From IMG/VR virus record IMGVR_UViG_3300042691_017774, positions 1 to 51,638 of that record: a stretch of DNA of 51,638 nucleotides. One strand, given 5' to 3'. This document shows, one piece after another, positions 1,014-7,691 of the stretch (position 1 is the first letter of the stretch; each line of letters begins with the position of its first letter). The position numbers were made by a program, and so were the translations under genes. The notes below the pieces were generated by a model. It searched no databases and had not been told where the DNA came from. It saw only the letters and a list, made by a program, of their open reading frames with translations. This DNA comes from a virus.

Positions 1014-1086
1014 TACCAAAGGTGGGAATCGAACCCACACTGTATGATTTTTGAAATCACCGACTCTACCGTTGGTCTACTTTGGC
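1014..1086 (-). tRNA. tRNA with Leu anticodon CAA (short variable loop)
   Basis: The minus strand folds as a cloverleaf: a 7-bp acceptor stem with a terminal G-U (GCCAAAG/CTTTGGT), D arm GAC-loop-GTC containing GG, anticodon stem GTGAT/ATCAT with loop TTCAAAA, a 5-base variable loop (ACAGT), T arm GTGGG-TTCGATT-CCCAC, and discriminator A. The anticodon is CAA (Leu, UUG codons). Bacterial Leu tRNAs normally carry a long variable arm, which is absent here, so the charging identity is uncertain. CCA is not encoded. Confidence 0.85.
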
Positions 1087-1090
1087 GTAA

Positions 1091-1163
1091 TAGGGATGGT
1101 GGGACTCGAACCCACACTGGAGCCATTTTAAGTGGCTTGTCTCGGCCATTGGACTACATCCCC
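1091..1163 (-). tRNA. tRNA with Leu anticodon UAA (short variable loop)
   Basis: Cloverleaf on the minus strand: acceptor GGGGATG/CATCCCT, D arm GTC-loop-GAC with GG, anticodon stem AGCCA/TGGCT with loop CTTAAAA, variable loop CCAGT, T arm GTGGG-TTCGAGT-CCCAC, discriminator A. The anticodon is TAA (Leu, UUA codons, expected to be common in this AT-rich genome). As in its neighbour, the variable region is short and no CCA is encoded. The T arm is nearly identical to that of the neighbouring tRNA, so the pair may have arisen by duplication. Confidence 0.88.
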
Positions 1164-1168
1164 GAAAA

Positions 1169-1870
1169 TCAAATATCAATTCCAAATTTTATACATCTTT
1201 TTCGCACAGCATTATCTGATACACCAAACATTTTACCTACCGCAACCATTGAATGAGATTGTATCAGACATTCTAACTCTTGTCTAGTAGGATTAAATTT
1301 TCTTCTTAATATTGAACTACAGGATACACAAATATCTGATTGTTTTCCAGTCACTGCATGACAAGTAGAACAATAATATTTTTTACGCTTAGTCGATTTT
1401 CCAGCAAATGTTTCAGTTTGAGAATGGCAATTTGGACACAGCAATCTCAAATTGGATAAAGTATTATCGTCACTTACACCATTAATATGATCTAATTGCA
1501 AAGTTAAGGGATTTCCTTGCCAACTATTTCCAATTCCACAATTTGAACATTTGTTTTCTAAAATATTTTCAGATATCAATCTTCTCTTTAAACGACCTCT
1601 GGAATATTTTGAATTTTTAGTCAAAACATCTAGCAATGGTGTTTTTTCTAGATTGGAAAAATTTCTACCTAAATTATGATACTTGCCTTCAGCAATATGA
1701 GAATAATCAATATTATCCTCATCTAATCTAGTTTTAAGTGTTCGTGTATTTCCACCCTTTGGTAATAAATTAAAATATTTAAGAACACAAGTAAAACTAG
1801 TGCAATTTTTAACTAAATTTTCTAGTTCCAGTTTAGGAAGTTTCCAAATTATTGATGTTTTTTGCCTCAT
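1169..1870 (-). CDS. HNH homing-type endonuclease between tRNA genes
   Basis: A 233-residue protein from the ATG at 1870 (MRQKTSIIWK); an earlier in-frame start would lie inside tRNA-Gln. Residues 108-150 hold an HNH core: a CxxC pair, LQLDHINGVSDDN, then LRLLCPNCH. A second CxxC...CxxC zinc ribbon follows near 167-184, and the last 40 residues look like a helix-turn-helix (FGVSDNAVRKRC). This layout matches free-standing HNH homing endonucleases that invade phage intergenic sites. It lies in a tRNA cluster and ends 6 bases before tRNA-Leu(UAA). Its own target is not visible. Confidence 0.85.
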   Translation of the reverse strand: MRQKTSIIWKLPKLELENLVKNCTSFTCVLKYFNLLPKGGNTRTLKTRLDEDNIDYSHIAEGKYHNLGRNFSNLEKTPLLDVLTKNSKYSRGRLKRRLISENILENKCSNCGIGNSWQGNPLTLQLDHINGVSDDNTLSNLRLLCPNCHSQTETFAGKSTKRKKYYCSTCHAVTGKQSDICVSCSSILRRKFNPTRQELECLIQSHSMVAVGKMFGVSDNAVRKRCIKFGIDI

Positions 1871-1913
1871 ATGGTAATACCTTTTGTATATGTATAAGGT
1901 ATTACCATGAAAA

Positions 1914-1985
1914 CTGCTTCGTTTGGAGTCGAACCAAAACAAATTCCTTCAAAGGGAATCGTGCTGCCAATTACACCACGAAGCA
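1914..1985 (-). tRNA. tRNA-Gln (UUG)
   Basis: Cloverleaf on the minus strand: acceptor TGCTTCG/CGAAGCA, D arm GTG-loop-CAC with GG, anticodon stem ATTCC/GGAAT with loop CTTTGAA (anticodon TTG), T arm TTTGG-TTCGACT-CCAAA, discriminator G. The first base U and discriminator G fit bacterial tRNA-Gln. The first tRNA base directly follows the stop codon of the upstream methylase gene, so the two are probably cotranscribed and separated by RNase P. CCA is not encoded. Confidence 0.9.
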
Positions 1986-2525
1986 TTAAAACACATTACT
2001 TGCGAGTGCGTACATTGCGATACCACTCGCGGTTCCTACATTCAGACTCCTGACAGTTCCATATTGCTTAATATACAATCTGTGGTCGCAGATGTCAAGA
2101 ATCTCTGCTGGAAGACCGACTTGTTCTTGACCGAACGCTAGAACATAATGTGTATTTTTATTCCATTCAAACTCATTAATTGCCGAAGCACCCGGTAGAT
2201 TATCTATGCCAATGACGGATACATTTCCATAGGAACCTCGTAGGATCTTGATTTGATCTTCAAGTTCAGAAAAGGTTCTGGTATGTAGAAAGTTCGTATA
2301 ATGATGTGTACCGACAGTGCCGCGACGATCATATTGTTTAGATCCGTAAAGAATTACCTGTTTAGCAAGGAACGCATTCGAATTGCGAATGACTGTAGCA
2401 ATATTGAAATCGTTATACAGATTGCTGCAAATAACGGTAAAATTATTCCGTTTCGCTTCAAGGTCAGCAATGATCGCTTCATGCGACCAGTAATGGTAGT
2501 GGTCGATGATGTTCCTCGTTTCCAT
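1986..2525 (-). CDS. SpoU/TrmH (SPOUT) RNA 2'-O-ribose methyltransferase
   Basis: A 179-residue protein with the three SpoU motifs in order: N38-DFNIATVIRNSNAF near 38-51, LAFGQEQVGLP near 129-139, and SLNVGTASGIAMY near 160-172. These form the trefoil-knot SAM site of enzymes that methylate ribose 2'-OH in tRNA or rRNA. Length fits the compact TrmH/TrmL group without an extra RNA-binding domain. It abuts tRNA-Gln and is followed by two Leu-anticodon tRNAs, which makes tRNA the likely substrate. A consensus promoter ends only 7 bases before its ATG and there is no Shine-Dalgarno sequence. Exact target nucleotide unknown. Confidence 0.85.
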   Translation of the reverse strand: METRNIIDHYHYWSHEAIIADLEAKRNNFTVICSNLYNDFNIATVIRNSNAFLAKQVILYGSKQYDRRGTVGTHHYTNFLHTRTFSELEDQIKILRGSYGNVSVIGIDNLPGASAINEFEWNKNTHYVLAFGQEQVGLPAEILDICDHRLYIKQYGTVRSLNVGTASGIAMYALASNVF

Positions 2526-2531
2526 GGTTGT

Positions 2532-2559
2532 ATTATACCAGAAATCTTCACTTTGTCAA
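2532..2559 (-). promoter_or_regulatory. Sigma70-like promoter before the SpoU gene
   Basis: The minus strand carries TTGACA (2554-2559), a 16-base spacer, and TATAAT (2532-2537), a full match to both host consensus boxes. The -35 box lies inside the last codons of the polymerase fragment gene. The expected start of transcription is about 2525, the first base of the methylase ATG. It would drive the methylase and probably the tRNA cluster behind it. Confidence 0.75.

Positions 2560-6258: not shown

Positions 6259-7691
<1,433 letters not shown>

Follow-up and report, generated by a model that had tools for sequence, protein, structure and literature searches.

The window, by which we mean the entire 51,638-nucleotide stretch of viral DNA analyzed here, carries on its minus strand a compact unit in which a SpoU-family 2'-O-methyltransferase gene (MTase) lies behind a sigma-70 promoter and directly ahead of a tRNA gene, with an HNH endonuclease gene and two further tRNA genes downstream (Table 1). 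No nucleotide separates the TAA stop codon of the MTase gene from U1 of tRNA-Gln(UUG), and the same zero-gap junction is found again in many relatives, though the Gln gene itself differs. All three tRNAs score between 55 and 61 bits against Rfam RF00005, and all three have GG in the D loop; those with anticodons UAA and CAA have A37 and A38 in anticodon loops reading CUUAAAA and UUCAAAA, respectively. In these respects the locus is as a preliminary description of this DNA had it, including the abutment of MTase and tRNA-Gln. That description made no mention of the HNH gene, of the promoter with its full set of consensus matches, or of the 5-nt variable loops of both 'Leu' tRNAs. The HNH gene sits in the tRNA spacer and is missing there in relatives L004, L009 and others; elsewhere among the relatives it is either missing or paralleled by a similarly sized insert that separates other tRNAs of the cluster, and we ascribe to it no part in methylase function.

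Table 1. Positions of the features discussed; coordinates are those of the window unless a related or other viral locus (L number) is named.
Feature	Position	Strand	Evidence or detail
Sigma-70 promoter, TTGACA-16-TATAAT, TG before -10	2559..2532	-	12/12 consensus matches
SpoU-family 2'-O-methyltransferase (MTase), 179 aa	2525..1986	-	PF00588, E 4e-24
MTase architecture: trefoil-knot SPOUT domain plus ~27 N-terminal residues	2525..1986	-	
tRNA-Gln(UUG), U1-A72, G73	1985..1914	-	ARAGORN; Rfam RF00005, 61 bits
HNH endonuclease, probable ATG start at 1870	~1870..1169	-	PHROG 10822, E 2.7e-45
Class I tRNA, Leu anticodon UAA, 73 nt	1163..1091	-	ARAGORN, Rfam RF00005
Class I tRNA, Leu anticodon CAA, 73 nt	1086..1014	-	ARAGORN, Rfam RF00005
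Promoters with 6-nt spacing to the start codon	window 2559-2525 and 6252-5682; many loci, L001-L081		
Class I Leu-anticodon tRNAs elsewhere	L286 601-673; L287 295-368; L288 293-369, 580-653; L289 301-374; L290 144-373		
Class I CAA tRNA with G37-U38	L040 7281-7353; L041 4982-5054		
DNA polymerase B ORF, 493 aa	2548-4029		PHROG 2062, 502-position family
Collagen-like GPT repeat protein	6259-7257		
Protein with RCC1-type repeats, 733 aa	14510-16711		
Permuted tmRNA	L076 9656-9845		RF04321, 87.6 bits, gathering 47

Exactly 6 nt separate the -10 element of the MTase promoter from the ATG, so that transcription is predicted to start on the A of the AUG and to yield a leaderless mRNA. Sites with at least 10 of 12 consensus matches whose -10 lies 6-9 nt ahead of the start codon were found at 25 of 38 MTase loci, compared with 13 of 239 control ORFs; the former count is a lower bound, because start coordinates are off by one to several codons in L040, L043, L056 and others. 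The spacing is exactly 6 nt in 20 of those 25 loci, and the spacer sequences differ, which argues that the promoter sites are kept by selection. Clades without the promoter have the MTase ATG a few nucleotides behind tRNA-Ile, where 3' processing of the tRNA could likewise produce a message without a leader. The same TTGACA-16-TATAAT arrangement, with its -10 exactly 6 nt before the ATG, also stands ahead of several other genes of these phages, among them those for dUTPase, polymerase and some products without an assignment, and the messages of these genes are likewise predicted to be leaderless. From promoters positioned to start transcription at the AUG comes a specific prediction, that these phages make leaderless messages.

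The MTase has relatives on at least 187 viral contigs. Linkage to tRNA genes was assessed in 75 of these loci together with the window, which resolve at 90% identity into 19 MTase clusters that share kinship and do not amount to 19 independent draws. A tRNA neighbor lies within ~520 nt (516) of the MTase gene in all 19 clusters and within ~110 nt in 14, whereas in four near-complete relatives only 4.8% of positions are within 516 nt of a tRNA and 1.6% within 109 nt; the association is beyond chance. The gene itself is under strong purifying selection, with dN of 0.05-0.13 against dS of 0.56-1.4 (dN/dS ~0.08-0.1) between the window MTase and five relatives. The identity of the neighboring tRNA varies by clade, encompassing Gln, Leu(UAA), Leu(CAA), Ile(UAU), Gly(UCC) and Asp(GUC), as well as Glu, and the nearest tRNAs in L056-L079, L047-L049 and L060-L074 are those for Ile, Asp or Gly. 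The earlier proposal that the phage carries a unit of tRNAs and a SpoU methylase is therefore borne out by linkage and selection, but its extension to a tRNA-supply and modification unit for UUA and UUG codons does not hold generally, because the neighbors in other clades are Ile, Glu, Gly and Asp tRNAs.

The two tRNAs with leucine anticodons are unusual in body. Both have a 3-bp D stem, G1.U72, A73 and a 5-nt variable loop in place of the long variable arm of a class II tRNA; ordinary bacterial tRNA-Leu is not of this short-variable-loop kind. They differ from each other by an A-U/U-A exchange at 11-24 in the D stem, and their D loops conform to CAAYGG(C/U)(A/C)GA, with one pyrimidine between A15 and G18. 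By contrast, tRNA-Gln(UUG) has two pyrimidines before G18 and so lacks the short-spacing signal. Leucine charging of the class I UAA and CAA tRNAs is plausible by analogy with Escherichia coli, where A73 and the D/T elbow, not the long arm, determine leucine identity (PMC9976931), since A73, A14 and the G18/G19 elbow are all present; the arm-less genes nonetheless raise the question of their acceptance by host LeuRS. In relatives, the same slot is filled either by class I genes or by class II genes of 81-90 nt, and at least eight changes between the classes are implied on the MTase tree for UAA, and at least eight for CAA. An HNH-associated swap of tRNA classes was considered and set aside, as HNH presence and tRNA class are unmatched by eye. 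Dependence of the MTase on class I tRNAs is also ruled out, since some phages have class I Leu tRNAs but no MTase, homologues of which were found in only nine phage records, and the MTase also occurs with class II genes. In L040 and L041, a class I CAA tRNA beside the same MTase has G37-U38 replacing A37-A38.

Class I Leu-anticodon tRNAs are widespread in phages of unrelated hosts, including Prochlorococcus phage P-SSM7, Myxococcus phage Mx1, Lactobacillus phage Bacchae, Streptomyces phage Wakanda and Mycobacterium phage I3. They mostly have G1.U72 and A73 and are annotated plainly as tRNA-Leu; a strict pattern of their body matches at least 120 viral stretches, and we found no paper describing them among the open-access papers searched.

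Membership of the MTase in the SpoU family is well supported, by a PF00588 match of 85.7 bits (gathering cut-off 29.7) and by residues N41, R47, E134, S160 and N162, which are invariant in 23 relatives and supply the motif 1 arginine, the G-x-E of motif 2 and the SLN of motif 3. An AlphaFold model (pLDDT 84.6) matches TrmH, AviRb and RlmB with a Foldseek probability of 1.00, in keeping with a trefoil-knot fold. The best fold match is Aquifex aeolicus TrmH (1zjr, E 3.7e-11), with AviRb and RlmB at ranks 2-8; TMq is 0.71 for A. aeolicus TrmH, 0.73 for Thermus thermophilus TrmH, and 0.61-0.64 for TrmL. Searches of the PDB with the family profile are similarly led by TrmH (1zjr, 2e-11; 7edc, 5e-11; also the T. 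thermophilus enzyme) and TARBP1 (2ha8, 2e-9), while TrmL structures appear at 2e-4 or worse. Against NCBIfam, the MTase scores 46.6 bits for TrmH (cut-off 227, NF008295), 46.5 for RlmB (160) and 26.7 for TrmL (190.6, TIGR00185), with TrmJ the weakest of the models compared; in profile-profile comparison its family scores highest with a Bacteroidota paralogue family (151), followed by TrmH and RlmB (136 each) and TrmL (65). PHROGs holds no family for the protein.

The closest relatives found are actinobacterial TrmH-family 'RNA methyltransferases' among cellular proteins (36-39% identity; Arthrobacter WP_054009725.1 and Nocardia) and the 'tRNA-methyltransferase' of Rhodococcus phages Trina and NiceHouse among named phages (31-33%). 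A relative at 55% is encoded, along with five tRNAs, on a Flavobacteriales MAG contig (L081) that is probably a phage contig. Two maximum-likelihood trees unite the MTase with the actinobacterial and Rhodococcus-phage proteins in one clade (support 98/97 and 99/98), whose members share the motifs D-[FMLA]-N-x-[GA]-[ST], [DN]-R-R-G and RS-[LIM]-N and which we refer to as the 'DFN' SpoU subfamily. Unlike the window gene, neither the cellular loci nor those of Trina and NiceHouse have a tRNA abutting the gene, and the function of these homologues was not found in the literature searched. The first tree was distorted by long branches (TrmJ, L095, L097) and was rebuilt with more TrmL rows; in this second tree, TrmL (9 rows) and the MTase clade (19 rows) are each monophyletic and not nested, and the MTase clade falls outside both TrmH (8 rows) and the RlmB clade. 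The phylogeny that the preliminary description had recommended thus returns a separate clade, grouping neither with RlmB nor within TrmL or TrmH. Deep branch order is less constrained, since AU tests that force TrmL (p 0.27), TrmH (0.11) or RlmB (0.09) as sister of the MTase clade reject none of them.

Residue comparisons give a mixed picture, which leans to the TrmH/TARBP1 side. Motif 1 of TrmL (YEPEIPPNTGNIIR; PEIPxNTGNI) is replaced in the MTase by SNLYNDFNIATVIR, and the alpha-2 helix of TrmL, with its basic run K42-R46, is shortened, with five residues missing before RR. In TrmL, this helix docks tRNA. R129 of TrmL is catalytic (PMC3763551). Invariant R67 and R68 of the MTase nevertheless align with TrmL R45 and R46, and invariant R159 with R129, placing an arginine before SLN in motif 3 as in TrmL, but also as in TARBP1. 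Motif 3 as a whole reads QYGTVRSLNV (IPQQGIIRSLNV) in the MTase and QQGIIRSLNV (IKQYGTVRSLNV) in TARBP1, a shared QxGxxRSLNV that retains a glycine missing from TrmL. The identification of the MTase as TrmL, offered in the preliminary description, is accordingly not supported: the score of 26.7 bits against 190.6, the absence of motif 1, the altered alpha-2 basic run, the separate clade, and a profile score of 65 against 136, 136 and 151 together lead us to reject TrmL orthology, though not a deep sister relation. Orthology with TrmH is rejected on 46.6 bits against 227 and a place outside the TrmH clade, and with RlmB on a place outside the RlmB clade and the want of an N-terminal substrate-binding domain. 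These tests place the MTase in SpoU, within a subfamily shared by Actinobacteria and phages, and outside TrmL, TrmH and RlmB.

We therefore lean, by a modest preponderance of the evidence, to the view that the MTase is a tRNA 2'-O-methyltransferase of an uncharacterized SpoU subfamily, not a TrmL orthologue, for which G18 is the favored target. That it methylates tRNA ribose is very probable; that the site is G18 is proposed tentatively, as one possibility ahead of other single sites. In the mechanism we envisage, the host-type promoter would initiate transcription from or next to the MTase AUG, giving one transcript in which a leaderless MTase message is followed directly by the phage tRNAs, and an RNase P cut at the 5' end of tRNA-Gln would free the latter. 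The MTase may then methylate ribose in phage tRNAs, and perhaps in host tRNAs too, most likely at G18 of the D loop; a methyl group there would strengthen the G18-Psi55 elbow. Of this account, the order of the genes, their conservation and selection, the subfamily, the fold and the position of the promoter are direct results, whereas co-transcription, substrate RNA, target nucleotide, processing and any gain for the phage are inferences. G18 is favored because the Gm18 enzymes TrmH and TARBP1 are the nearest studied proteins by profile; together with Trm3 they represent the tRNA Gm18 group to which profile and fold match best. Methylation of G18 by a TrmH-type enzyme, which the preliminary description had named as the main alternative to TrmL, is the better supported of its two readings, as a candidate and without TrmH orthology. 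The GG shared by the window tRNAs, and by all but two of 143 distinct tRNAs in MTase loci, proves nothing here, as G18 is nearly universal in tRNA. The class I body, on the other hand, would matter for an enzyme of the E. coli TrmH type, which has Gln and Leu tRNAs among its substrates in vivo and needs either a long arm or a D loop one nucleotide shorter between A14 and G18 (PMC11640301). Both Leu-anticodon tRNAs of the window have this short A14-G18 spacing, but tRNA-Gln does not; moreover, the MTase lacks the C-terminal extension of TrmH, TrmL R46 and R129 align with its invariant R68 and R159, and the rRNA enzymes RlmB and AviRb match it almost as well as TrmH does.

Several other targets merit consideration. 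TrmL (YibK) forms Um34 or Cm34 in tRNA-Leu, and the anticodons of its substrates lie beside the phage gene, such that the MTase might resemble TrmL by convergence rather than by orthology, methylating, with the help of i6A37, the wobble ribose (position 34) of the UAA and CAA tRNAs and thereby tuning the decoding of UUA and UUG, which make up 52% of leucine codons in the window. Like TrmL, the phage protein has a small, SPOUT-only body, and A36-A37-A38, which TrmL needs (PMC9508554), is present in both window tRNAs. The aligned arginines add to the resemblance, and recognition of the anticodon arm only, as in TrmL, would allow swaps between class I and class II, so that the class I body is neutral for this reading. 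We nevertheless regard position 34 as an unlikely target, in view of the separate clade, the low TrmL profile scores and the missing TrmL motif 1, the presence in TARBP1 too of the R129 equivalent, the Ile, Asp or Gly neighbors noted above, and the retention of the MTase beside the G37-U38 tRNA of L040 and L041. Methylation elsewhere in many tRNAs, whether at position 32 as by TrmJ or at a ribose in the D, T or acceptor arm, is a minority possibility that we rate a little higher, given an uncharacterized subfamily with many tRNA types in its neighborhood and the loose relation between phylogeny and substrate position among SPOUT enzymes (PMC9508554). Against it stand the low rank of TrmJ among the models compared and the want of a positive pointer to any one site.

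An rRNA target, with the MTase acting on host ribosomes in the manner of RlmB, AviRb or TsnR and the tRNA-gene setting being incidental, would fit the equal profile scores of RlmB (the 23S Gm2251 enzyme, which shares the SpoU catalytic domain) and TrmH, and the high ranks of AviRb and RlmB in the fold search. The phage protein, however, has no N-terminal RNA-binding domain such as RlmB or AviRb possesses, and adjacency to tRNA genes in every cluster makes this reading highly improbable. Alternatively, a methyl mark at whatever position may shield phage or host tRNAs from host anticodon nucleases, because cleavage by these enzymes uses the ribose 2'-OH. Phage tRNAs evade tRNA-targeting defenses (PMC10264068, PMC11555353), and the host-type promoter suggests early synthesis; yet protection would require a site within the anticodon loop, and we consider shielding very unlikely. 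A broader version of the reading we prefer, in which the leaderless first gene of a tRNA operon encodes a tRNA ribose methylase of a novel type whose mark lets phage or surviving host tRNAs, the arm-less class I Leu tRNAs included, remain folded and charged or evade host defenses that cut tRNA, is speculative and, in its entirety, quite unlikely.

Like other phage tRNA operons, to which roles in codon supply or defense evasion are attributed, the window unit offers tRNAs that match codons favored by the phage, in this case UUA, UUG and CAA. The open-access papers that we found on phage tRNAs and tRNA modification deal with evasion of tRNA-cutting defenses and with codon supply, and none of them describes a co-located tRNA-modifying enzyme or a phage-coded SpoU enzyme; the Thurquoise and mycobacterial prophage papers likewise turned out to treat other subjects. 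Should the MTase methylate tRNA, then some phages would supply both tRNAs and the enzyme for their maturation, and an actinobacterial SpoU subfamily of unassigned function would gain a testable substrate, because the phage puts probable substrates beside the gene.

Gene content assigns the window to a T4-like myovirus: it encodes homologues of portal (PHROG 213), the major head protein gp23 (PHROG 138), gp46/47 and UvsW. By gp23 and UvsW, its nearest cultivated kin, at 48-56% identity, are T4-like phages that infect cyanobacteria, Pelagibacter or Methylophilales. WhiB, a marker of actinobacterial association, occurs neither in the window nor in four near-complete relatives, and an actinobacterial host is not supported on this evidence. 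The DNA polymerase B ORF encodes just the initial portion of the polymerase domain and then stops, which suggests a split polymerase. Elsewhere in the window are a collagen-like repeat protein and, in the tail region, a protein with repeats of the regulator of chromosome condensation type. In related phage contigs (L076, and also L062, L065 and L069), the tRNA cluster includes a permuted tmRNA, which in L076 overlaps a tRNA-Gly call and has the tag ANELAMAA.
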